DNA of 37,970 bases, from assembly GCA_016869045.1 (NCBI GenBank), contig VGFC01000017.1, positions 1-37,970 of the forward strand. Direction: 5' to 3'. This stretch comes from Armatimonadota bacterium (lineage in GTDB: Bacteria > Armatimonadota > Zipacnadia > Zipacnadales > VGFC01). Shown piece by piece: positions 5,170-19,806 of the stretch. The translations under genes and the position numbers were made by a program. The notes under the pieces are model-generated. The model saw nothing but the letters and a program-made list of their open reading frames with translations, made no database searches and was not told where the DNA came from. Position 1 is the first letter of the stretch, and the number at the start of each line of letters is the position of its first letter.

Positions 5170-6288
5170 TCACTGCAGACGCTTGCGGAAGCTGAAGGCC
5201 CCGGCGGCGATCAGCACCACCCCGAAGCACAGCAGGGCCGTCAGCTCTCGCCACAGGTCCTCAACCCCACTGCCCTTCAGCATGATCGAGCGGATCACGG
5301 TGAGGAAGTAGCGCAGGGGAATCGCGTAGGTCAGCGTCTGCATCCACTGCGGCATGTTATGGATCGGGTAGGCGAAGCCCGAGAGGATGATCGAGGGCAG
5401 CATCACGAAGAACATGGTCATCTGCGCCTGCTGTTGCGTCCCGGAGACCGTCGAGACCAGCAGACCGGTTCCCAGGCAGGTCAGCAGGAATAGCAGTAGC
5501 GCTGCGAAGAGCAACGGGAAGCTGCCCTGCATCGGCACTCGGAACCAGAACAGGATCACACCCATCACCAGGAGCATGTCGGCGGTCGCGACCAGGCCGT
5601 AGGGCACGAGCTTGCCCAGAATCAGCTCCCAGGCCCTCAGCGGCGTGACCATCACCTGCTCCAGTGTGCCGGCCTCCCGTTCCTTCACGATGGACAGCGA
5701 CGTGAGATTGCCCGTGATCACCAGCAGCACCAGCCCCAGCACCCCGGGCACCATGTAGTACACGCTCTCGAGCGTCGGGTTGTAGAGGACGCGCGTGCGC
5801 AGGTCTACCGTCGGCGCCCGGCCACCGAGCCCCACGGCCCGCAACTGCTGGGCCGCGGCGCGAGCCCCATGCTGCGTGACGAGAGCGTTGAGGTAACCCG
5901 CCCCGATTCCCGCGGAGTTCGCATCGCTCCCGTCGATCAGCAACTGAACGACCGCCTTCCCCTGGCGCAGGTCTCCGCTGAAACCGTAGGGGATGTGCAG
6001 AGCCAACTGCGCCTGCCCGCGATCCAGCAGCGGGATGAGGTCGGTGGAGCGGCCGGTCTGTAACGCGATGACGAAGTAGCCCGAGTTCCCCACTTCGGCA
6101 ACGAGACGCGCGGACTCGGCAGACCGGTCGTCGTCGCACACCGCAATCGGCAGGTCCTTCACATCCAGGTTCGCCGCGTAGCCAAGCAGCGTGAGCTGGA
6201 TGATCGGCGCCATGATCGCCATCACGACCATACGCCGGTCGCGCCGGAACTGACGGAACTCCTTCTTGATGAGGGCCGCGAGACGCAT
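5170..6288 (-). CDS. ABC-2 type transporter permease (YbhR/YbhS-like)
   Basis: 372 aa; MRLAALIKKEFRQFRRDRRMVVMAIMAPIIQLTLLGYAANLDVKDLPIAVCDDD..., C-terminal six-TM segment with NLTSLSIVKEREAGTLEQVMVTPLRAWELILGKLVPY and LSGFAYPIHNMPQWMQTLTYAIPLRYFL. Confidence 0.92.
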   Translation of the reverse strand: MRLAALIKKEFRQFRRDRRMVVMAIMAPIIQLTLLGYAANLDVKDLPIAVCDDDRSAESARLVAEVGNSGYFVIALQTGRSTDLIPLLDRGQAQLALHIPYGFSGDLRQGKAVVQLLIDGSDANSAGIGAGYLNALVTQHGARAAAQQLRAVGLGGRAPTVDLRTRVLYNPTLESVYYMVPGVLGLVLLVITGNLTSLSIVKEREAGTLEQVMVTPLRAWELILGKLVPYGLVATADMLLVMGVILFWFRVPMQGSFPLLFAALLLFLLTCLGTGLLVSTVSGTQQQAQMTMFFVMLPSIILSGFAYPIHNMPQWMQTLTYAIPLRYFLTVIRSIMLKGSGVEDLWRELTALLCFGVVLIAAGAFSFRKRLQ

Positions 6289-6301
6289 GGCCGCCCCTAT
6301 C

Positions 6302-6476
6302 GCGTGTATGAGATGGGTGACCGGGCGCCATCAATGGCGCCCCTACGCGATTGGGCGCGATGAATCGCGCCCCTACGCCAACCGTAGACTGCCGTCATGT
6401 AGGGGCACGATTCATCGTGCCCGAGTGTAGGGGCGTGATTCATCACGCCCAGTGCCGTACTTCCCGTACGCCCTCT
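6302..6476. repeat. Palindromic repeat cassette, copy 2 (four hairpin units, two per orientation)
   Basis: Units at 6323-6346, 6353-6376 and inverted units 6399-6422, 6427-6450; same order and stem variants as copy 1; edges GCGTGTATGAGATGGGTG...CCCTCT match copy 1. Confidence 0.9.
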
Positions 6477-7612
6477 TACAGCCGCTTGCGGAAGCGGACG
6501 ATGCACACGGCGAGCAGCACGATGGACATGGCCAGCAACACAAGCAGCGGCGGCCAGACGACCGCCAGGCCAACGCCCTTCAGGTAGATCGGCCGCGTGA
6601 TCCGCAGGAAATGCGTCGCGGGAATCAGCGCGGAGATGATCCGCAGGAGCAGCGGCATGTTGCGGATTGGGAAGATGAAGCCCGAGAGCATCATCGTCGG
6701 CAGCAGCGTGGAGATGATCGCGGCCATCATCGCGATCTGCTGACGCTGCGCGATCGTCGAGATGAACAGCCCGAAGCTCAGCGCGCACGCGAGGAACACC
6801 ACGCTGCAGGCGAGCAGCAGCTCCACGCTGCCGGTCACGTAGACCTTGAACACGAGCGCACCCGTGCAGATCGCGATTCCCACATCCACCAGCCCGATGA
6901 CCACATAGGGAAAGAGCTTGCCCAGCAGGATCTCCGCTGCCAGAACCGGAGATGCCGCGAGCGTCTCGAACGTGCCACGCTCCCGTTCGCGGACGACCGC
7001 CCCGGAGGTGAGCAGCGCCCCCAGGATGACCAGGATCACGACGATCAGACCGGGGACGATGAACTGGCGGCTCTCCATCGCCGGGTTGTACAGGACCTTG
7101 CGCGCTACCGTCAGCGGCGGGTTCGCCGTGCGCACGTTCAGTCCCAGCCGCGCGTGCGCGCTCGCCTGCAGCCGCGCCGCCTGCGCGTTGATGGCACCGG
7201 CCAAGTAGTTCCGGGCGGTCGAGGCGGTGTTCGCGTCACTCCCATCGAGCAGCACCTGCAAGGCCACCGACTTGCCGCCCGACAGGTCCGCGCTCATGTG
7301 CGGCGGGATCACCAGCAGGAACAGGCACTGCCCGTGCAACACGAGCTGCTCCCCCTCCGCCGGGCTCCCCACCGAGGCCACGAGACGGAAGAGCCCGGAG
7401 TGCACCAGGTGCTCGCGAAGGCCCCGGCTCGCCTGGGAGTTGTCCATGTCGCAGAGCGCGAACGGCAGGTCGGTCAGGTCGAAGTTGATGCCCGCTCCGT
7501 TGATGATCAGGAGCGCGAAGGGCAGCACCAACGCCACGACGAGGCTGCGCGGGTCGCGCTTGATGTGGATCCACTCCTTGCGCGCCATCGCCAGCAGTCG
7601 TCGCCCGCTCAC
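6476..7612 (-). CDS. ABC-2 type transporter permease (YbhS/YbhR-like)
   Basis: 378 aa; MARKEWIHIKRDPRSLVVALVLPFALLIINGAGINFDLTDLPFALCDMDNSQAS..., GAVVRERERGTFETLAASPVLAAEILLGKLFPY, LSGFIFPIRNMPLLLRIISALIPATHFL. Overlaps the ATPase gene by 4 nt. Confidence 0.92.
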   Translation of the reverse strand: MSGRRLLAMARKEWIHIKRDPRSLVVALVLPFALLIINGAGINFDLTDLPFALCDMDNSQASRGLREHLVHSGLFRLVASVGSPAEGEQLVLHGQCLFLLVIPPHMSADLSGGKSVALQVLLDGSDANTASTARNYLAGAINAQAARLQASAHARLGLNVRTANPPLTVARKVLYNPAMESRQFIVPGLIVVILVILGALLTSGAVVRERERGTFETLAASPVLAAEILLGKLFPYVVIGLVDVGIAICTGALVFKVYVTGSVELLLACSVVFLACALSFGLFISTIAQRQQIAMMAAIISTLLPTMMLSGFIFPIRNMPLLLRIISALIPATHFLRITRPIYLKGVGLAVVWPPLLVLLAMSIVLLAVCIVRFRKRL

Positions 7613-8550
7613 TCCCCCACCTCCCTCGATCCGCTCGCCAGCGCGAGGAAGGCGTGCTCGAGCGTCGGCGTAACGGGCTCGATCTCCCCCACCGTCACAC
7701 CCGCGCTCCTCAGCCGGTCAGCCAGCAGTCCGGCGGGATCGCCCACCCCATCGCCTACCGCGGCGTGCAGCGCCGTGCCGAAGAGGGACACTTCGAGCAC
7801 TTCCGGCAGCGCCCCCAGCACTTCGACGGCGCGCATCGGCGGCTCCGCGCGCACCTGGAGCAGCGTGCCGGGCACCATCGCCTTCAGCGCCGCCGGTGGG
7901 CCTTCCGCCACGCGACGCCCCTCGTGGATCAGCAGTAGCCGATTGCAGTGCTCGGCCTCGTCCATTACGTGCGTCGTGACCAGCGTCGTCACGCCCGCGT
8001 GCGCGAGGTCCCCGATCAGCTCGAAGAAGCTGCGTCGCGCACCAGGATCTACGCCGCTCGTCGGTTCATCGAGGAACAGGATCGGCGGCTGGTGGACCAG
8101 CGCGCACGCCAACGCCAAACGCTGGCGGACGCCCGTGGACAACTCCGCCGCCGGGCGATCGCGCTCCGCTGCCAGGTTCAGCCGCGTCAGGAGTGCATCG
8201 GAGCGCTCCTCGAAGCGCCGCCTGGTCACGCCGTACACGCCGCCGTAGAACTCGAGGTTCTCGCCTACCGTGAGGTCGGGGTACAGCGAGAACTGCTGCG
8301 ACATGTACCCGATCTGCTCGCGGACGCGCTCCGGTTGCCTGCTGACGCTCATGCCGCCCACCAGGGCGTCGCCCTCTGTGGGCAGCAACAGGCCGCACAG
8401 CATCCGGATCGTCGTGGACTTGCCTGACCCATTGGGCCCGAGGAAGCCGAAGATCTCGCCGCGGGGAATCCCGAACGAGAGGTGGTCCACCGCCGTGAAC
8501 GAGCCGAAGCGCTTCACCAGTCCGTTCGCAACGACCGCCGCCTCAGACAT
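7609..8550 (-). CDS. ABC transporter ATP-binding protein
   Basis: Likely start MSEAAVVANGLVKRFGSFTAVDHLSF at 8550 within ORF 7609..8589; Walker A FLGPNGSGKST, signature LSTGVRQRLALA, Walker B ILFLDEPTSGVDP. Confidence 0.93.
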   Translation of the reverse strand: MSEAAVVANGLVKRFGSFTAVDHLSFGIPRGEIFGFLGPNGSGKSTTIRMLCGLLLPTEGDALVGGMSVSRQPERVREQIGYMSQQFSLYPDLTVGENLEFYGGVYGVTRRRFEERSDALLTRLNLAAERDRPAAELSTGVRQRLALACALVHQPPILFLDEPTSGVDPGARRSFFELIGDLAHAGVTTLVTTHVMDEAEHCNRLLLIHEGRRVAEGPPAALKAMVPGTLLQVRAEPPMRAVEVLGALPEVLEVSLFGTALHAAVGDGVGDPAGLLADRLRSAGVTVGEIEPVTPTLEHAFLALASGSREVGE

Positions 8551-9499
8551 CGACACCACCTCCGCCGCCCACCACGGTTGTGAACACATCCTCCAGCCCC
8601 GGCATGATCGGCGCCACCGACGCGACCTCCACGCCCCCCTCTCGCAGCCTCGCCTCGATTCGCTCCGGCCCCACGTCGTCCCCCACCGAGACGTGCAGCC
8701 GGTCGCCGAAGGTCACGACCGACTGCACCCCGTCCGCCGCAAGCAGCAGCTCCTTGGCAGTCCGTTGCGGTGTGGCGTCTACCGCGAACAGCCGCCCCGG
8801 TACGCGCTCCTTCAGCGCCTCTGGCGAGGCACATGCGAGCACGCGCCCCTCGTGCAGCAGCGCGACGCGATCGCACCGCTCGGCCTCATCCATGTACGGC
8901 GTGCTCACGAGCACCGTCACGCCCTGTCGCGGTAGGTCATACAGCAGGCGCCAGAAGTCGCGCCGCGAAGCGGGATCGACCCCGGTCGTCGGCTCGTCCA
9001 GCAGCAACACCTCGGGGCGATGGATGAGCGTGCAGATGAGACCGAGCTTCTGTCTCATGCCGCCGCTCAGGTGATCGGCCCGGCGGTTGGTGAAGGGCGC
9101 GAGCCGTGTGATGCTCAGTAGCTCCGGCCGCCGCGCCTCGTAGTCCGCCCGCCGCACGCGGTACAGGTCCGCGCAGAAGCGCAGGTTCTCGTCGATGGTG
9201 AGGTCGCCCCACAGACCGAAGCGTTGCGCGAGGTAGCCCAGGTGCGGCTTCGCGGATTCGGGCGAGGCGACCACGTCACAGCCGGCCACCCGCGCCGAGC
9301 CTTCCTCGGGCGTCAACAGCCCGGAGAGAACGCGCATGAGCGTCGTCTTCCCCGCGCCATCGGGGCCGACGAGTCCGAACACGTCGCCCCGCGCCACCTG
9401 CAAGTCGACGCCGTTCAGCGCGAGGACCTCGCCGAAGCGCTTCACCAGGCCCGCGCCTTCGATTGCCCATTCAGCCGACGGTCCGAGGGAGGGGTCCAT
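8543..9499 (-). CDS. ABC transporter ATP-binding protein
   Basis: Walker A LVGPDGAGKTTLMR, signature LSGGMRQKLGLICTL, Walker B VLLLDEPTTGVDPASRRDFW. Confidence 0.93.
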   Translation of the reverse strand: MDPSLGPSAEWAIEGAGLVKRFGEVLALNGVDLQVARGDVFGLVGPDGAGKTTLMRVLSGLLTPEEGSARVAGCDVVASPESAKPHLGYLAQRFGLWGDLTIDENLRFCADLYRVRRADYEARRPELLSITRLAPFTNRRADHLSGGMRQKLGLICTLIHRPEVLLLDEPTTGVDPASRRDFWRLLYDLPRQGVTVLVSTPYMDEAERCDRVALLHEGRVLACASPEALKERVPGRLFAVDATPQRTAKELLLAADGVQSVVTFGDRLHVSVGDDVGPERIEARLREGGVEVASVAPIMPGLEDVFTTVVGGGGGVDV

Positions 9500-9511
9500 G
9501 GGTCCTGCGCT

Positions 9512-11152
9512 TCAGCGGGTCGGGGTCTTTACGTCGGCGGGCATTCCGGGCTTCAGCAGGCCATCGGCATCACCGAGGCCGACCTTGATCCAGTACACCT
9601 GCCTCATTCGCTGGTCAGGGGTCTGCACGTCCTTCGGGGTGAACTCGGCCTCCTTGGAGATGCGCGTCACGACCCCCTCGAAGACGCGACGCGGCACGGC
9701 CTCCGTTACCACCTGCAGGCGCTGCCCCTTCACGATACTGCCGAGCGTCCCAAACCCCACGTACGCGCGCAGCCAGAGGTTCCGCAGGTCCGACAGGACC
9801 ACGATGGCCGACCCTGGACCGGCCACCTCGCCGGCGTCCAGGATCAGCTCTGTCACCGTCCCGCTGGTCGGCGCCATGATGTCGCAGTACCCGCGCCTGA
9901 CCTCCACCGCCTTCAGCGCCGCCTGGGCCTCGGCCGCGCGCCCGCGTGCCACCTGAATGGCCTCCTGCGTGTGGCCCGCGAGGAGCAGCGACAACTCCGC
10001 CTGTGCCGCCTGCTCGACCGCCCGCGCGCGTTCGAGGGCCGTCTGCGCCGCGTCCTTCTGCGAGCGTGCAGCCAGCCGATCGTCGTATGCCGTCGTCGCG
10101 TTCGTCAGCCCGTCCTTCGCGCCGTCGGCCTCCGACTCCGCCGCGCGAACCGCCGCCTCCGCCAGCCGAACCCGCTCCTCCCGCGTGCCGGCCAGCATGA
10201 CGTCGAGCTTCGCCTTCGCCGCATCGCGCGCCCGCAGGGCCTCCTCGAGCGCGCTCCGGGCGCCGTCCCGAAGCTGAAGCGCCTGCGCCCGCGTCAGTCC
10301 GACTTGCTCCTCCGCATCCTTCACGCCTCGCCCCGCGCCGGCGAGCTTCGCGTCCGCGATGGACTGCTCGGTCTTCGCGCGGTCAAGGGCTTGCCCCGTC
10401 GCCGCGTCGGCCTTGGCAAGCTGATCCGCCCGCGAGGCCTCGGTCCGCGCCAGGCCCGCCGAGGCTTGCGCCACGGCCTCTTCGGTCGTCGCGGCGATCA
10501 GCGGCCCCTCGATCGCCGACTGCCGCGCGTAGATCTCCTCCGCGTTCTTCGCCGCGGTCTGCGCCCCCGCGACCCGCGCCTCCGCCTGGGCGAGCGCAGC
10601 CTTCAGCGTCTCGATCTCCTCCGGTGTAGCGCCACGTCGGGCCTCGTCGAGTTGTGCCTTCGCCTGTGCCACGCGGGCATCCGCCGCCCGGCTTCGGGCG
10701 CGCGCCTCGTCAACCGCCTGCTTCAGGTCCGTCCCCTTGCGCAGACCCACCAGTGCGAGGACGCTCTGCTCATCAGCCCCGTGACGCGCCGCGGCCGCCT
10801 CCGCCACATGGGCCCGAGCTGCCGCGATCTGCTCCGGCCGAGAGCCGCGCTCCAGGTCCCGCAACGCCGCCTCGGCCGCATCAACCGCCGCCTGCGCCCG
10901 CTGGCGTTCCGCGTCGATGTCCTCGTGCTCCAGACGCGCAATGACCTGCCCGGCCTTCGCCTCATCCCCCTCGCGCACGAGCACCTCCGCCAGCCGCCCA
11001 CCCATCTTCGGGCTGACGCGCACCTCATCGGCCTCAATGATCCCGCTGCCCAGGATGTCGCGCGCGCTCTCGCGGTGAGCGATCGAGCGGATCACGACCG
11101 CGCCGACGACAATCACCACCACGGCAACCAGCAGGGGCACGATCCGCTTCAT
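9512..11152 (-). CDS. HlyD/YbhG-like periplasmic adaptor (membrane fusion protein) with very long coiled-coil hairpin
   Basis: 546 aa; N-terminal TM (MKRIVPLLVAVVVIVVGAVVI), lipoyl half-motif VSPKMGGRLAEVLVREGDEAKAGQVIARLE, long Ala/Arg/Glu-rich coiled coil, returning lipoyl half CDIMAPTSGTVTELILDAGEVAGPGSAIVVL. Confidence 0.9.
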   Translation of the reverse strand: MKRIVPLLVAVVVIVVGAVVIRSIAHRESARDILGSGIIEADEVRVSPKMGGRLAEVLVREGDEAKAGQVIARLEHEDIDAERQRAQAAVDAAEAALRDLERGSRPEQIAAARAHVAEAAAARHGADEQSVLALVGLRKGTDLKQAVDEARARSRAADARVAQAKAQLDEARRGATPEEIETLKAALAQAEARVAGAQTAAKNAEEIYARQSAIEGPLIAATTEEAVAQASAGLARTEASRADQLAKADAATGQALDRAKTEQSIADAKLAGAGRGVKDAEEQVGLTRAQALQLRDGARSALEEALRARDAAKAKLDVMLAGTREERVRLAEAAVRAAESEADGAKDGLTNATTAYDDRLAARSQKDAAQTALERARAVEQAAQAELSLLLAGHTQEAIQVARGRAAEAQAALKAVEVRRGYCDIMAPTSGTVTELILDAGEVAGPGSAIVVLSDLRNLWLRAYVGFGTLGSIVKGQRLQVVTEAVPRRVFEGVVTRISKEAEFTPKDVQTPDQRMRQVYWIKVGLGDADGLLKPGMPADVKTPTR

Positions 11153-12498
11153 TGGCCCGTGACCTCCTGGGCGGGGATGAGCACGAGCGAGCGCAGCAGG
11201 CCGAGCGCCCGGGCGCGTGAGAACTTTGCGGCGTTCAGGGCGAACCCGGCCTGGGCGCGCTTCTCCCGAGCCTGCCTCAGCGCGCCCTGCGCCGCAGTGA
11301 GCTGCTGCCGCGTGATCGTACCTGCGCCGTACGCCGCTTGCGCCTGACCCGCCGCGTCCGTCGCCGCGCGCAGGGCCTCATCCGCCGCCGCGATGGCCTC
11401 CCCCGCATCCGCTAGGCGCCGAGCGGACTCGCTCACCTGCAGCGCGATGACGCTCTCCAGGTCGCTGCGCAGGCTCGCAATCTCCTCGACCGTCGCCTGC
11501 GCCTGCCGCTCCGCCGCGTGCGAGGCCGGGTGGTTCAGGATCGGCCACTCGAACCCCAACCCTACATACTCCGAATGCGCGGACATCATCGCCGTCGGCG
11601 TCTGCAGGGCCGCCCCCGCCACCGCGGCCACGCCCGGCTGCCGTTCCGCCCGCGCCTGCGCAATCGCCTTCCGCGCAGCCTCCTGCCGCGAGGCCAAGGC
11701 CGGCAACTCCGGCCGCACCGCGAGCGCAACCGCCTGCGCATCCGCCGGATTGGCCGGGCACTCGAAGTCCACCGCCGCCTCCGCCAGCGTCACCGGCTCC
11801 CCCAACGGCCGCGCCAGCAGTGCGTTGAGGGCCTGTTCAGCATCCGTCGCCGCGTTCCCCGCCGCCGCCACCATCTGCTCAGCGCGCCGCTGCGCCGCCT
11901 CGGCCTGGGTCACCTCGGCGCCCGTCGCCGCCTTCGCCTCATGCCGCGCGCGCGTCGTCCGCAGGTTCTCCTCTGCGGTCGTCAGCCCGGCCTGCGTCTC
12001 CGCCAGTGCGCTCTTGCTCGACAGCACGCGGAAGTACGCGAGCCCGACCTCATAGATGAGCTGCTCCGTGGCTTGCTGCAGGTCCGCCTCCGCCGCATCC
12101 ACCTGCGCCCGCGCCGCCCCCGTCGCCGCCTCAATCCGCCCTCCATCCCACAGCGGCCAGACCACGCCCAGGCTCACCGCCGCGGACACCGAGCGCGTGA
12201 TGTTGATGGTCCGCGGCGGCTCTATCGGGATCGTGATCTGTTGCGCCGGATTCTGCAGCCGCCCCGACCCGCTCAGCTTGAACGCTGGTTGCGCCGGCAC
12301 CCTGGCCAGCGACACCCGCGCCTGGGCCTGCTCGATCCTCGCCGTCGTCGCCGCCAGCTTCGGGTTGTGATCCACCGCCCACGCCACCGCCTCCGGCAAC
12401 GCCATCGGCGCAGGCTCCTGCCCTTGCACCAGACCCGGGGCCGCTGCTAACAACACGACCGCTGCTAGCTCCATCACTGGACGCCCCTCATCGCTCAC
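11149..12498 (-). CDS. TolC family outer membrane efflux protein
   Basis: 449 aa; signal-like N-terminus, PMALPEAVAWAVDHNPKLAATTARIEQAQARVSLARVPAQPAFKLSGSG..., long helical repeats. Overlaps the adaptor start by 4 nt. True start may be the internal Met (MELAAVV). Confidence 0.88.
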   Translation of the reverse strand: MSDEGRPVMELAAVVLLAAAPGLVQGQEPAPMALPEAVAWAVDHNPKLAATTARIEQAQARVSLARVPAQPAFKLSGSGRLQNPAQQITIPIEPPRTINITRSVSAAVSLGVVWPLWDGGRIEAATGAARAQVDAAEADLQQATEQLIYEVGLAYFRVLSSKSALAETQAGLTTAEENLRTTRARHEAKAATGAEVTQAEAAQRRAEQMVAAAGNAATDAEQALNALLARPLGEPVTLAEAAVDFECPANPADAQAVALAVRPELPALASRQEAARKAIAQARAERQPGVAAVAGAALQTPTAMMSAHSEYVGLGFEWPILNHPASHAAERQAQATVEEIASLRSDLESVIALQVSESARRLADAGEAIAAADEALRAATDAAGQAQAAYGAGTITRQQLTAAQGALRQAREKRAQAGFALNAAKFSRARALGLLRSLVLIPAQEVTGQ

Positions 12499-12546
12499 CT
12501 TGCCGTTCTTGGGACCGCCCGCAGCCGTAGCATTCCGCCGCCAGTC

Positions 12547-13980
12547 CTACACGACCATCGGCTCGATCCGGTGCATCTGACAGTAGGCGAGCAGATCGTC
12601 CTTGTGGTCGCCGTAGAAGAAGACCTGGTGGAAGCCGGGGAAGTCGCGCGGGTCGATCTCGGAGTCGAGCTTGACCTCGACATCGGTGCGGCAGCCGCCG
12701 CCGGGCGGGGTGTTGACGTTGCCGGCGACCTCGCCCGAGGCTATGATGAGTTTCTTCGTTCCGGAGAACTGCGCGATGGTGATTCGCTGGCCGATCCGCC
12801 AGAGCACCTGCGGGGCGGCGGCGGTGTCGGAGTGATGGCTGCGGATGATGTAGGGCGCAGGCGGTCGGTCGAACCCGTCGAGCTTCGACGCGGAGGTGCA
12901 GTGGAAACCGCAGAGGGTGTGGTGCACCGTCTCGGGCAGCGGGTCCTGGATGTAGCCGGGCTTGTCGAAGAGGTAGCGCACGAGGAGCATCGTGGTGACC
13001 GCATTCATGTCGGCCTCGCAGCCCGCGACGACCTCGCCCGAGTCGTTCAGCCCCATCCACGCGAGGCAGGGCGCGGGCGTGCGCTTGCTGCTCGCGAGGC
13101 CCAGGCAGTCCATCGTGATCGCGTCGGCGTCCTCGCGGCGCATGAGGCTGCGTGCGGCGAGGTAGTGCCGGCCCTGGTCGCAGAGGTCCTGCATCGAGGG
13201 CTCCACGCACTTCTGCGCTCGGCTCAGGAAGCCGTCGGCCAACTGCCGCACTTCCGCCGAGACGAGCACGCTGTCGAACTCCTTCGCGTAGTCCTCGCTC
13301 GGAACCACCCGCACGCGGCAGCCAAGGTCCGCGAGCTGACCGTCCTTGCGCTCCTTGCCCCTGACCACGAGGATGCGCGTGTTACGCAGCTGCGCGGCGG
13401 CGCGGATCATCCGCATCCCCTGGACCACGCCGCTGAACTCCAGCGAGGAGACCACGTACGCGCCCGGCTTCTTCGAGGGCGCGAGCACGTTCTGCGTGAA
13501 GGCGGTGCCGATGGGCGCGAAGATGACGCTTGGGATGCCCGTGTCGGCGAGGGCGTTGGCGGTCGGCCACGCGACGCCGTGGCGGTCCATCACGAGAAGC
13601 ACGACCCCGTCCGGCGGGTTGGCCTTGAGGCGCCCGATGAACGCGTCCTGGTCCTTCTGCTCGTAGATCGGGCTGGCGTTCATCACCAGCTGCACGCCGA
13701 GGTCCTGCGCGGCCTGGGTGAGCAGCCCACCGTAGCGTTTCATCTCCGCATCCACGGGGTACGAGCGCCCGGGGCAGGACATCCAGAAGTCGCCCTTGCG
13801 CCGCACGAAGGCCGCGCGGATCACCGCCGGAAGCGTGCGCCAGTCGTCGGAGGCCCGTGAGGGGACCTGCCGCGAGAGCAGTGCGCTGAGGCCCAGCGGG
13901 ATGGCCGGCAGTGTCCTCAGGAATGCGCGGCGGGTGGTTAGGCAGTCCTGGGGAAGACAGGAGCGGGAGCAAGTCTCCAT
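12547..13980 (-). CDS. Tat-signal protein with L-fucose/L-arabinose isomerase-like fold (putative exported sugar isomerase-like protein)
   Basis: Twin-arginine leader TTRRAFLRTLPAIPLGLSALLSRQVPSRA; C-terminal part APCLAWMGLNDSGEVVAGCEADMNAVTTMLLVRYLFDKPGYIQDP resembles fucose isomerase C-terminal motifs. Start ATG 13980 preceded by TAGGAGGTG. Confidence 0.6.
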   Translation of the reverse strand: METCSRSCLPQDCLTTRRAFLRTLPAIPLGLSALLSRQVPSRASDDWRTLPAVIRAAFVRRKGDFWMSCPGRSYPVDAEMKRYGGLLTQAAQDLGVQLVMNASPIYEQKDQDAFIGRLKANPPDGVVLLVMDRHGVAWPTANALADTGIPSVIFAPIGTAFTQNVLAPSKKPGAYVVSSLEFSGVVQGMRMIRAAAQLRNTRILVVRGKERKDGQLADLGCRVRVVPSEDYAKEFDSVLVSAEVRQLADGFLSRAQKCVEPSMQDLCDQGRHYLAARSLMRREDADAITMDCLGLASSKRTPAPCLAWMGLNDSGEVVAGCEADMNAVTTMLLVRYLFDKPGYIQDPLPETVHHTLCGFHCTSASKLDGFDRPPAPYIIRSHHSDTAAAPQVLWRIGQRITIAQFSGTKKLIIASGEVAGNVNTPPGGGCRTDVEVKLDSEIDPRDFPGFHQVFFYGDHKDDLLAYCQMHRIEPMVV

Positions 13981-14043
13981 CGGGGGCACCTCCTACGTGC
14001 TTAGCACTCGGAGGCGCCTGTTCGCCGTCGTCGTCCCTCCTCC

Positions 14044-15081
14044 CTACTCCCGTGCGGGTGGGTCTGAGGGCCGCTGCCACGTGGCTTGGCCGTCTCGCAT
14101 GACGAGGTTCCATCCCCTGTTATGCCAGGGCTCGCGGTCGCGGAGGAGCCATTCGTCATTCGGTATAGAGCTCAGCTTCCTCCCCGCCAGCTCCGCGTTC
14201 CACGCATAGCTGATGCCCGGCGACGGGAAGCGGTCCATCCGATACCACCCGCGCCAGTCCCAGTTCGCCGGGTCGGAGGGGCAGAAGAACAGACCGGCGT
14301 TCTTCACGTAGGGCCAGATTGCGCCCCTGCCGAGGGCCCCCTTGCTGCCTACCACATCCGCAGCGTCCGCCTCGATGGCTGCCAGCCTGCCGTAGTCCAC
14401 ACCCGGGAGGTCGTTGGCGGTGTCGCAGGCCGGCAGCTTGCCGTCCCAGTCCTCGGCGTACATGTTCAGTCCAAGACGGAGCTGCTTCAGGTTGCTCTGG
14501 CATGACGTTCGCCGACCGAATGCGCGCGTTTTCGCGAACAGCGGGGACCCTTCCGGCGACGCAAGGTACACGACCGCCGTGCTCAGAAGCGCGGCTGCTC
14601 CCGCCCGCCACGCCGCTGGGCGACGGCGTTGCGGCGGCCAACGCCACAACACCGAGGCCGCCAACGTCCCGCCCAAGCCACCCAGCATAGCCAAGGGAAT
14701 GGGCAGCAGTATCCACCGATAGGGTACCGGGCCCAGCGGCAGGACCGGCACACCGGGCCGGACGTGCCAGGGGGATCGCACCACGCCCGAGGCCAGGGCC
14801 ACAAACGCGCAGATACCGCATATCACGATCGCGATCAGCAGTGACCCGTTCGGTGCGACGCCACGTGAGAGACGACCGAAGAGCCTCAGCACACCGCCCA
14901 TTGCTGCCCCGCCGATGAGCCCCCATTGGAGCCCCCAGACCCCCAACGCCAGCACCAACGCCGGGAAGCCCACTCCAACACAGAGGAGTGCCACGACCAG
15001 ACAGAGTAGCGCGCCTGCTGCGCCGCACAGTAGCCACTGCCCGAACACGATGGCCCAGCGCGGCGTTCCCGCGCTCGCCAT
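14044..15081 (-). CDS. Multi-TM membrane protein with C-terminal prepilin-type H-X9-DG domain (paralog A)
   Basis: MASAGTPRWAIVFGQWLLCGAAGALLCLVVALL... then FGRRTSCQSNLKQLRLGLNMYAEDWDGKLP...GLFFCPSD...GISYAWNAELAGRKL...EWLLRDREPWHNRGWNLVMRDG (exact H-X9-DG). Strong SD (GGGAGGAGGTG) before ATG 15081. Confidence 0.75.
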   Translation of the reverse strand: MASAGTPRWAIVFGQWLLCGAAGALLCLVVALLCVGVGFPALVLALGVWGLQWGLIGGAAMGGVLRLFGRLSRGVAPNGSLLIAIVICGICAFVALASGVVRSPWHVRPGVPVLPLGPVPYRWILLPIPLAMLGGLGGTLAASVLWRWPPQRRRPAAWRAGAAALLSTAVVYLASPEGSPLFAKTRAFGRRTSCQSNLKQLRLGLNMYAEDWDGKLPACDTANDLPGVDYGRLAAIEADAADVVGSKGALGRGAIWPYVKNAGLFFCPSDPANWDWRGWYRMDRFPSPGISYAWNAELAGRKLSSIPNDEWLLRDREPWHNRGWNLVMRDGQATWQRPSDPPARE

Positions 15082-15140
15082 CTCGCTCACCTCCTCCCTG
15101 AAAGGCGCTGAGGTCCCAACCTGCTCGACGCCTCAGTGCT

Positions 15141-16160
15141 TTACGGCGCGCCCTCGCGTGCCGAGTGCCCGTTGGCGAAGACCACCACGCGTGTGCCGTT
15201 GTGCCACGGCTCTCGGTCCCGCAGCAACCACTCCTCCGACACTACGGGGATCGTCTTCAGCTTCCGTCCGGCGAGCGACGCGTGCCAGAGGTAGCTGACC
15301 CCGGGCTCGGGTTCGGCGCGCCAGATCAGCCGGCCACGCCAGTCCCTGCGCGTCATGTCGCTCGGGCAGAACCAGATCCCGTGGTTCTTCGAATAGGCGT
15401 CCATCGGTCCGCCGCCCAAGGACTTGAGGAGCGGGTCGTGGAGAGGGTCAACCGGGGCCTGACCATACTTCGCGCGGTCTACTCCGAGCAGCTCGAGGCT
15501 GGTTTGCCCGAGCGGCAAGCGGTCGTTGTAGTCCCGCGCGTACATGAGGAACGCGAGGCCCAGCGACTTCTGGTTGCTCATGCAGGAGGCCTCACGGGCG
15601 TGGTCGCGCGCAGGGCGGAGCAGGCCCCAGAAGACCAGGCACGCGACTGCCACCGGCACGAGGGCGCACAGGACAGCGTTGCGCGCCCCGGTGCGCCGGG
15701 GCCGTTTCGGCCAGCCCCAGAGGGCGGCTGCGGCGATCACGCCGCCGTATGCGCCAAACATCACCGCCGTCTGCTCTTCGAGGTAGTACGACATGCTCTG
15801 CAGGTCGTGCAGGACCGGCAACTCCTCCCAGAGGAGGGAGTGGCGAAGCAAGCGCGATAGGGTGAGTTCCAGCCACAGGTTGACGACAGTGGGAAGCGCG
15901 CACATGCATACCGCGGCGAGGATCAGCTCACCCGGACGGACACCGCGGGACACCCGCCCGAACAGCCAGAGGATGATCCCCAGCTCCAGGCCGCCGATGA
16001 GTCCCCACTCGAACCCGAGGACCGGCGCCCCCCACAATGCCGGCAGGTAGCCCGTGCCGTTGAACACCAGCGCGGCAACCAGACATACAGCGGCCCCGGC
16101 CAGCCCGCACAGCAGCCACTGGCCCAGACCCCTGATCCAGCGCGGCTGTCCAGCGGACAT
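15141..16160 (-). CDS. Multi-TM membrane protein with C-terminal prepilin-type H-X9-DG-like domain (paralog B)
   Basis: MSAGQPRWIRGLGQWLLCGLAGAAVCLVAALVFNGTGYLPALWGAPVLGFEWGLIGGLELGIILWLFGRVSRGV... REASCMSNQKSLGLAFLMYARDYNDRLP...IWFCPSD...EEWLLRDREPWHNGTRVVVFANG. ATG 16160 has SD GGAGGTGAG; the ORF-track start at 16685 is too long. Confidence 0.75.
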   Translation of the reverse strand: MSAGQPRWIRGLGQWLLCGLAGAAVCLVAALVFNGTGYLPALWGAPVLGFEWGLIGGLELGIILWLFGRVSRGVRPGELILAAVCMCALPTVVNLWLELTLSRLLRHSLLWEELPVLHDLQSMSYYLEEQTAVMFGAYGGVIAAAALWGWPKRPRRTGARNAVLCALVPVAVACLVFWGLLRPARDHAREASCMSNQKSLGLAFLMYARDYNDRLPLGQTSLELLGVDRAKYGQAPVDPLHDPLLKSLGGGPMDAYSKNHGIWFCPSDMTRRDWRGRLIWRAEPEPGVSYLWHASLAGRKLKTIPVVSEEWLLRDREPWHNGTRVVVFANGHSAREGAP

Positions 16161-16268
16161 GCTGCTCACCTCCATCACGTAGGACGCTCCTGCCGCCTTC
16201 GGGCCTCGGTCAAGGTACCACATCGTATCGTGTCGAATGCCTCGTCGATCCCTAAGGAGGACGTTCCC

Positions 16269-17165
16269 ATGCGTCACCTCTTCCTCGCCGCTGCGTGCCT
16301 GCCGATCGCGCACGCGCTCTATGCCCAGGAGGCCGTCACTCACCGCTTCATCTGCGCTGACAACGGGCTGAACAAGGTCTTTGTGGTCGGCCCGGATGGC
16401 AAGATCGAGTGGGACTTCGACGTGCCGGTCGGCCAGGACGTGTGGCGGCTGGCGAATGGCAACCACCTCGTCAGCCACCTCCGCGGCGCGTGGGAGATCA
16501 CGCCTGACAAGCAGATCGTCTGGCGCTACGATTCGCCCGAGGGCACCGAGGTGCACACCTGCCAGCCGCTGGCGGACGGGAACGTGATGGTGATTGAGTG
16601 CGGGACGAGCCGGATCGTCGAGGTGGACCGCGACGGGAAGATCGCAAAGGAGGTCCCGCTGAAGACCTCCACCACGAACGTGCACCTACAGTTCCGCAAC
16701 GGGCGCAAGCTCGCGAACGGCCACTACCTCGTCGCCTTCGTCGGCGAAAACCGGCTGGTGGAGGTCGATGGCGAGGGCAAGGAGGTCTGGAGCTACAACG
16801 CGCCGGGCAACTGCTTCGCCGGCGTCCGCCTACCCGACGGGAACACGGTCATCCCCTGCGGTGATGGGCACAAGCTCGTCGAGATCAACCCGCAGAACGA
16901 GATCGTCTGGCAGATCGACGAGAACGACCTGCCCGGCAACCCGCTGCGCTTCGTCGCGGGCGTCCAGCGCCTCCCGAACGGCAACACAGTCGTCTGCAAC
17001 TGGGGCGGGCATGGCTTCGTCGGCCAGCAACCGCTGATCTTCGAGGTCACGCGGGACAAGAAGGTGGTGTGGGAACTGAGGGACTACGAACGCTTCCGCA
17101 CCGTCTCGCACGTGATGCTACTCGACGTCGAGGGCGATCCGGCGCAGGGGGAGGTGCTGAGGTAG
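16269..17165 (+). CDS. Exported beta-propeller protein (PQQ/NHL-like repeats)
   Basis: MRHLFLAAACLPIAHALYAQ signal peptide; recurrent LANGNHLV / LADGNVMV / LANGHYLV / LPDGNTVI / LPNGNTVV with VEVDxxGKxVW strands. AAGGAGGA SD upstream of ATG 16269. Confidence 0.75.
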   Translation: MRHLFLAAACLPIAHALYAQEAVTHRFICADNGLNKVFVVGPDGKIEWDFDVPVGQDVWRLANGNHLVSHLRGAWEITPDKQIVWRYDSPEGTEVHTCQPLADGNVMVIECGTSRIVEVDRDGKIAKEVPLKTSTTNVHLQFRNGRKLANGHYLVAFVGENRLVEVDGEGKEVWSYNAPGNCFAGVRLPDGNTVIPCGDGHKLVEINPQNEIVWQIDENDLPGNPLRFVAGVQRLPNGNTVVCNWGGHGFVGQQPLIFEVTRDKKVVWELRDYERFRTVSHVMLLDVEGDPAQGEVLR

Positions 17166-18258: not shown

Positions 18259-19806
18259 ATGACGATGCCTCGTGAGCCTCACGTACTCGGCCGCCGTGAG
18301 TTCCTGACACTGGTCGGCGCTGGGGCCGCCGCTTTGTCGGTACCCCGGCGCCTGCCGGCCCAGGCCGAGCCGGCCAGACGCCCCAACATCATCGTCATCC
18401 TCGCCGATGACCTTGGGTATGGCGGCGTGGGCGTCCAGGGCTGCACGGACATCCCGACGCCGAACATCGACTCGATCGCGCAGAATGGCGTGCGCCTGAC
18501 GAACGGGTACGTCTCCTGTCCGGTCTGCAGCCCGACGCGCGCGGGTCTGATGACCGGCCGGTATCAGCAGCGCTTCGGGCACGAGCACAACCCCGGCCCG
18601 CCGCAGTCCGCGGACACCAACTTCGGCCTGCTGGCTACCGAGACGATCCTGCCGGAGCACCTGAAGGCCCACGGCTATGCGACGGGGATGTTCGGCAAGT
18701 GGCACCTGGGCTACTCGGGCGACTCGGTGCCGACGAAGCGCGGCTTCGATGAGTTCTACGGGTTCCTCGCAGGCGCGCACCCCTACGTCCCGGGGCAAGT
18801 GGACCCGGCGAACCCGATCATGCGAGGCACGGAGCCCGTCGAGGCGCCCGAATACCTCACCGACGCCTTGGCCGCCGAGGCCTGCAGCTTCATCGAACGC
18901 CAGGCCGCGGGGCCGTTCTTCCTGTACCTGCCCTTCAACGCCGTGCACGCCCCCCTTCAGGCGACGGACAAGTACCTGGCGCGCTTCGCCGGCATCGCCG
19001 ACGAGAAGCGACGCACGCACGCCGCCATGCTCTCCGCGATGGACGACGCCGTCGGGGCGGTCATCGGCAAGCTGCGTGACCTCGGCCTGGAGGAGAACAC
19101 GCTCGTCTTCTTCATCAGCGACAACGGCGGCCCCACGCCGTCCACGACCTCCAGCAACCTGCCCCTGCGGGGCTACAAGGGGGAGACCTGGGACGGCGGC
19201 ATCCGCGTCCCGTTCATGGCCCAGTGGAAGGGTCGCCTGCCCGCCGGCAAGGTCTACGACCTCCCTGCGATCGCCCTCGACGTGCTCCCTACCGCCGTCA
19301 CGGCGGTGGGTGGCGCCATCGAGGCGGGCTGGAACCTCGACGGCGTCGATCTCGTACCCTACCTGTCGGGGGAGAAGACCGAGGCGCCGCACGAGGACCT
19401 CTACTGGCGCTTCGGTGAGCAGTGGGCCATCCGCAGGGGCGACTGGAAGCTGGTGCTGGCCCGGGGCCTGACGACGCCCGCGCTGTACAACCTCACCCAG
19501 GACATCAGCGAGACGACCGACCTTGCGGCTACTGAGGCGGCCAGGCTCGCCGAGCTTCAGCAGGCCTACGACGAGTGGAACGCACAGCTCATCCCGCCAC
19601 GCTGGACGCGGCAGACGGGAGGGGCGGCCGGCGGCGGTGGCGCGGGGGCGCAACGCCTCCGGCAACTCGACGCGGATGGTGACGGCAAGCTCTCCGCGCA
19701 GGAGCTGGGCCGCCCGCGCCTCTTCCGCCGTCTCGACACGAACGGCGACGGTTTCGTGACCGCAGACGAAGCCGGGAACGCCCTCAGAGGGCGACGGGCG
19801 CGGTAG
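18259..19806 (+). CDS. Tat-exported sulfatase (arylsulfatase family) with C-terminal EF-hand pair
   Basis: RREFLTLVGAGAAALSVP Tat leader; RRPNIIVILADDLGYGGVGVQG; sulfatase motif C-S-P-T-R in VSCPVCSPTRAGLMTGRYQQRFGHE; C-terminal DADGDGKLSAQE and DTNGDGFVTADE loops. Confidence 0.95.
   Translation: MTMPREPHVLGRREFLTLVGAGAAALSVPRRLPAQAEPARRPNIIVILADDLGYGGVGVQGCTDIPTPNIDSIAQNGVRLTNGYVSCPVCSPTRAGLMTGRYQQRFGHEHNPGPPQSADTNFGLLATETILPEHLKAHGYATGMFGKWHLGYSGDSVPTKRGFDEFYGFLAGAHPYVPGQVDPANPIMRGTEPVEAPEYLTDALAAEACSFIERQAAGPFFLYLPFNAVHAPLQATDKYLARFAGIADEKRRTHAAMLSAMDDAVGAVIGKLRDLGLEENTLVFFISDNGGPTPSTTSSNLPLRGYKGETWDGGIRVPFMAQWKGRLPAGKVYDLPAIALDVLPTAVTAVGGAIEAGWNLDGVDLVPYLSGEKTEAPHEDLYWRFGEQWAIRRGDWKLVLARGLTTPALYNLTQDISETTDLAATEAARLAELQQAYDEWNAQLIPPRWTRQTGGAAGGGGAGAQRLRQLDADGDGKLSAQELGRPRLFRRLDTNGDGFVTADEAGNALRGRRAR

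Follow-up and report, generated by a model that had tools for sequence, protein, structure and literature searches.

A tandem pair of predicted polytopic membrane proteins with DUF1559/H-X9-DG-type tails in an Armatimonadota genome

Introduction

Two adjacent genes on an Armatimonadota contig raise the question of what a DUF1559/H-X9-DG-type tail does on a predicted polytopic membrane protein, in the place of a pilin-type leader. DUF1559 (SBP_bac_10; PF07596) proteins that bear a leader share with this pair the junction PVFarAReKARqtSCxSNlkQ, the CPSD motif, and H-X9-DG; they have an FTLIELL leader helix, whereas the pair has at that position a module of five transmembrane (TM) helices and no cleavage motif. 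Such leader-bearing proteins form large paralog families in Planctomycetes and Armatimonadetes, and in Planctomycetes DUF1559 ranks with the largest of these families. Passages of published reports give 74 DUF1559 genes in Rhodopirellula baltica (PMC2754498), 68 DUF1559 paralogs in Planctopirus limnophila, two of them essential (PMC10632474), and 79 PulG-type genes in Fimbriimonas ginsengisoli, only 65 of which have the N-terminal methylation motif (PMC4072686). The five-TM plus DUF1559 architecture is not described in these passages. We analyzed the window, a stretch of 37,970 bases that is contig 17 of a 7.87-Mb Armatimonadota draft genome, hereafter the host genome.

Results

Gene A (P0001; positions 14044..15081) and gene B (P0002; 15141..16160) both lie on the minus strand. 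The preliminary description had reported two adjacent open reading frames with common N- and C-terminal blocks; both frames were recovered, and the quoted blocks are present in their translations. Gene B starts at the ATG at 16160. The frame of gene A is open up to a GTG at 15090, and the ATG at 15081 is the more likely start since a Shine-Dalgarno sequence (AGGAGG) lies 8 nt upstream of it. The two proteins are 41% identical over 340 aligned columns (BLASTP; 204 bits, E 9e-68), and by this end-to-end similarity they are paralogs with the same architecture.

The membrane module occupies 14551..15081 in gene A and 15633..16160 in gene B, both on the minus strand. An AlphaFold2 model of the gene A protein, built with 96 aligned sequences, and hydropathy predict five TM helices, which the model places at residues 11-37, 42-74, 82-100, 130-148, and 154-177 (numbered from the GTG start). 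Model confidence in this part was moderate, with block means of 44-79. These five predicted helices, together with the missing prepilin motif, agree with the earlier view that a hydrophobic multi-TM module replaces the single prepilin helix and its cleavage site. No Pfam family matched the module above its cut-off. The number of TM helices was odd in the members that were modeled or read (five, or three by hydropathy in the member L054), and loops 2-3 and 4-5 of gene A are rich in basic residues (K and R) where a model with the N terminus inside puts the cytoplasm, while loop 1-2 is uncharged. Because of the odd count and the position of the basic loops, the tail was placed outside; the model is consistent with a cytoplasmic N terminus and an external tail. 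An exception is loop 3-4, which in gene A and the same-genus member L052 carries three basic residues despite its predicted outside position.

The tails cover 14047..14550 in gene A and 15144..15632 in gene B (both minus strand). In the full model, the gene A tail consists of one long helix (183-214) followed by four beta strands, mostly at pLDDT >90, and the tail folded alone reached a pLDDT of 88.8 and a pTM of 0.84. It carries SCxSN, CPSD, and HNRGWNLVMRDG. Foldseek comparison of the full model and of the tail alone with solved structures returned nothing with E <0.5 and did not show a pilin fold. In a comparison of sequence profiles with the PDB, the sole match was that of the pilin helix of canonical rows to type IV pilins, which is uninformative on the window tails.

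PF07596 matched residues 189-234 of the gene A protein with 29.2 bits and residues 183-228 of the gene B protein with 27.8 bits (gathering cut-off, 23.3), each match covering some 46 residues where the tail begins. On these matches, both can be filed as DUF1559-domain proteins. Gene A also has a literal H-X9-DG motif (H323, D333-G334). The earlier assignment of the tails to DUF1559/H-X9-DG thus stands for PF07596 in both and for the motif in gene A, with two qualifications: gene B has H-X9-NG in place of H-X9-DG, and TIGR04294 gave no match at E<=10 for either protein. The two genes are missing from the 33 TIGR04294 (H-X9-DG) matches of the host genome.

We built a hidden Markov model from 31 pseudopilin-type sequences of the host genome, and it matched gene A with 67 bits and gene B with 52 bits. 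In gene B the match begins at ARDHAREASC, and in gene A at PLFAKTRAFGRRTSC, where the last TM helix ends. This profile aligns with both tails at their pilin-type junction, CPSD, and H-X9-[DN]G, the last of which falls on the canonical motif. Since the motif alone arises somewhere by chance in 1.7% (gene A) and 5.3% (gene B) of shuffled proteins, its weight comes from the profile alignment. The preliminary description had suggested that a polytopic domain was fused onto a pseudopilin-like one, and it was right, given where the profile match begins.

A prepilin motif search of both proteins found none and no cleavage site with its +5 glutamate. PF07963, the N-methylation motif, had no match at E<=10 in either window protein; it does match the canonical paralogs L002 and L006. 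As the motif is absent, the window tails are probably not processed by prepilin peptidase. Both a cleavage motif and a single N-terminal helix were looked for and neither was found, so the pair was not filed as pilins. In PulG/GspG-type pseudopilins and type IV pilins, the comparison is with solved structures: the N-terminal helix of the canonical paralogs matches solved pilins, whereas the window proteins lack this leader helix, and no solved structure matches their tail significantly by Foldseek.

Three further members of the family were identified, L052 in the same genus and L053 and L054 in the same order, giving five proteins in four of 291 Armatimonadota genomes. A contig search with one protein returned no relative; with the alignment it returned three, all in genomes already covered. 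The remaining matches among the 291 genomes were ordinary DUF1559 proteins, with L055, which has a single TM helix, intermediate. The same architecture, sought as the preliminary description had proposed, was present in three other assemblies. The five-TM form with a tail, although rare, is a genuine variant within a known domain family. Cys197, Cys270, Asp214, His323, and Gly334 are invariant across the five members. L054 has a BamE-like domain behind its tail; its locus in that genome (L082:5809-8362, genome G004) holds three non-pilin H-X9-DG genes in tandem, L054 followed by two more non-pilin tails.

There is practically no chance that a mis-joined gene or assembly artifact explains the architecture, since three more members from three independent assemblies have an identical join and the module is found solely with the tail (no membrane module without it among 101 genomes). 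PF07596 matching the tails and homologs that are single unbroken frames in four assemblies disposed of both objections raised at the outset, a tail that the domain models miss and a mis-joined membrane region.

Gene B and L052, probable orthologs, are 65% conserved in the tail versus 49% in the membrane module. In a tail tree, L052 grouped with gene B (support, 100), and L053 and L054 fell together with gene A (support, 85); most deeper forks were weakly supported. From these pairings, the duplication appears older than the spread of the order, with two paralog lines retained.

From retrieved stretches of the host genome, we collected about 70 open reading frames with an H-X9-DG-type tail. The pilin motif was present in 56 of them by a strict pattern and in a few more by eye, and nine have no pilin leader: the window pair, L013 (the same protein as L138), L010, L119, L021, and the tandem trio L130. 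Their scaffolds are of five kinds, namely, five-TM, DUF4190, single-TM (L021), signal-peptide, and anti-sigma. L010 is a zinc ribbon/DUF4190 protein; it and other DUF4190 (PF13828) plus DUF1559 proteins, with related matches in several relatives, resemble the window pair in having the tail behind a polytopic or two-TM anchor and in lacking a prepilin site, and differ from it in that the anchor is distinct from the window module by Pfam and in that L010 adds a zinc-ribbon-like region. The products of the trio on host contig 11 (L130:744-2751, minus strand) are small, have one or two TM helices and an H-X9-DG-type tail, and lack a prepilin site; the DUF4190-like member of the trio has matches in several relatives; tandem arrangement is common to the window, this trio, and the L054 locus. 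In L119 (L119:1091-2008, host contig 6), what appears to be a signal peptide is combined with an H-X9-DG tail that no membrane helix precedes, and the PF07596 score of 17.1 bits is under the cut-off.

The ninth protein is encoded by the second gene of a predicted sigma/anti-sigma pair (L138:1660-3872, host contig 295) and joins zf-HC2, a pilin-like helix, an H-X9-DG tail, and DUF4349. It has relatives in ten other genomes (L158-L167; the L165 locus is interrupted by Ns). In each of the 11 genomes, the reading frame immediately upstream is that of a sigma factor, mostly overlapping. Four of these upstream genes were tested against Pfam, and all showed sigma-70 regions 2 and 4; of six relatives tested, all carry DUF4349 and five carry zf-HC2 and DUF1559. 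A glutamate at pilin position +5 of the embedded helix, followed by FPxF...C.SN, occurs in 10 of 11, and PF07963 scores 20.0 bits inside L164 (cut-off, 21.2). By sequence, this form looks like a whole pseudopilin embedded in an anti-sigma factor, and these proteins are predicted to hold an ECF-type sigma factor. A literature search combining anti-sigma, prepilin, ECF, and Planctomycetes found no paper. Like the window pair, the form places this kind of tail on a non-pilin protein of the host genome; unlike the pair, it has a cytoplasmic zinc finger, an embedded pilin-like helix with a +5 glutamate, and an adjacent sigma-factor gene.

As judged from these domain arrangements, the H-X9-DG tail is a movable domain and the five-TM form one of several non-pilin scaffolds that carry it; the anti-sigma form makes the strongest case. 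Because the domain occurs on non-pilin anchors and anti-sigma factors, it would be separable from filament assembly.

Discussion

We regard it as an evenly balanced proposition that the pair are inner-membrane receptor or adaptor proteins that show an H-X9-DG/DUF1559 domain outside the cytoplasm and are not pilus subunits. The five-helix module, its N terminus cytoplasmic, would stand in for the prepilin leader and would keep the domain at all times on the external side of the membrane. As the prepilin cleavage site is absent, the window proteins would be neither processed nor polymerized. Their tails, as fixed receptors or adaptors, would bind a ligand or partner shared with the roughly 60 pseudopilin-type H-X9-DG proteins of the host, which the window proteins would then present or relay at the membrane. 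An outside location of the tail and a receptor or adaptor role, in binding or sensing, are what we infer as most likely from the PF07596 and pseudopilin-profile matches, the TM count, the better conservation of the tail than of the module, and the retention of both lines.

The fusion of relatives of the domain to zf-HC2, behind an ECF-type sigma gene, may lend further support by analogy. In anti-sigma factors, the part outside is normally the sensor. The analogy is indirect, since the tail tree separates the anti-sigma tails from those of the window pair. In a wider form of the proposal, which is tentative and somewhat doubtful, H-X9-DG would be a general extracytoplasmic recognition domain that, in Armatimonadota, has moved among pseudopilins, polytopic anchors, and anti-sigma factors, and the five-TM pair and the sigma/anti-sigma pair would read the same ligand or state of pilus assembly at the membrane. 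The window pair alone is moderately interesting, and the movability of the domain adds to that interest: the anti-sigma and other non-pilin forms offer a genetic handle on what the domain binds, through a sigma regulon and a soluble-tail ligand that could be measured.

It is unlikely that the pair are instead accessories of a type IV pilus or type II secretion system, in which a permanently anchored pseudopilin-like domain would prime, cap, or dock a pseudopilus. Pseudopilins with H-X9-DG are numerous in the host genome, which also has thirteen T2SSE ATPase matches above the cut-off and a candidate prepilin peptidase, but the PF00437 (T2SSE ATPase) and PF01478 (prepilin peptidase) matches are on other contigs, with none on the window contig. 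Linkage of the pair to type II/IV secretion genes, for which a search had been suggested, was accordingly not found there, and an operon with pilus genes was ruled out for this contig. A pilin cleavage motif including the +5 glutamate is missing from both proteins, and the family is confined to four of 291 genomes of the phylum, whereas DUF1559 tails are widespread.

A quite unlikely reading ties the pair to the neighboring exporter, whose substrate it would recognize. Genes B and A head nine minus-strand genes (5170-16160) running in one direction; the first spacings are 59, 63, and about 50-70 nt, after which the genes overlap or lie a short gap apart, with 187 nt in the last gap. No terminator-like site was found in 12300-16400. 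The run includes a binding-protein-like gene and, by Pfam, genes for a TolC-type outer membrane protein, an HlyD-type adaptor, two ABC ATPases, and two ABC-2 permeases. The gene next to the pair (12547..13980, minus strand), 63 nt past gene A, has a twin-arginine-like leader and is weakly like periplasmic binding proteins (Peripla_BP_6, 21.5 bits, under the 31.7 cut-off); its co-transcription with gene A is possible, going by the layout. The homologs in G012 and G004, however, have other neighbors, namely, a pectate-lyase-like and an electron-transfer-flavoprotein-like gene (by eye) in the former and more H-X9-DG genes and an HlyD-like protein in the latter. The contig of G001 is uninformative on this linkage because it ends just past the ortholog.

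It is very unlikely that the pair are by-products of domain shuffling among the many pseudopilins and that selection on them is weak. The patchy distribution, the large number of paralogs, and the altered motif residues in gene B (NG for DG) would fit such an origin; against it, the five members have intact frames and both paralog lines and the tail motifs have been kept.

Several features of the window surround the pair. A collinear ABC-2 type exporter cluster with the TolC-type and HlyD-type genes lies downstream on the minus strand (5170-12498). On the other side, a divergent beta-propeller-type gene, Mala_s_1-like, occupies 16269..17165 on the plus strand (PF22701, 117 bits). The same-genus ortholog has the identical neighbor (L083:975-1943, minus strand; PF22701, 118.9 bits), and the neighborhood is not kept beyond the genus. 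Farther along the plus strand, at 18259-19806, is a sulfatase gene whose product has a C-terminal EF-hand pair.
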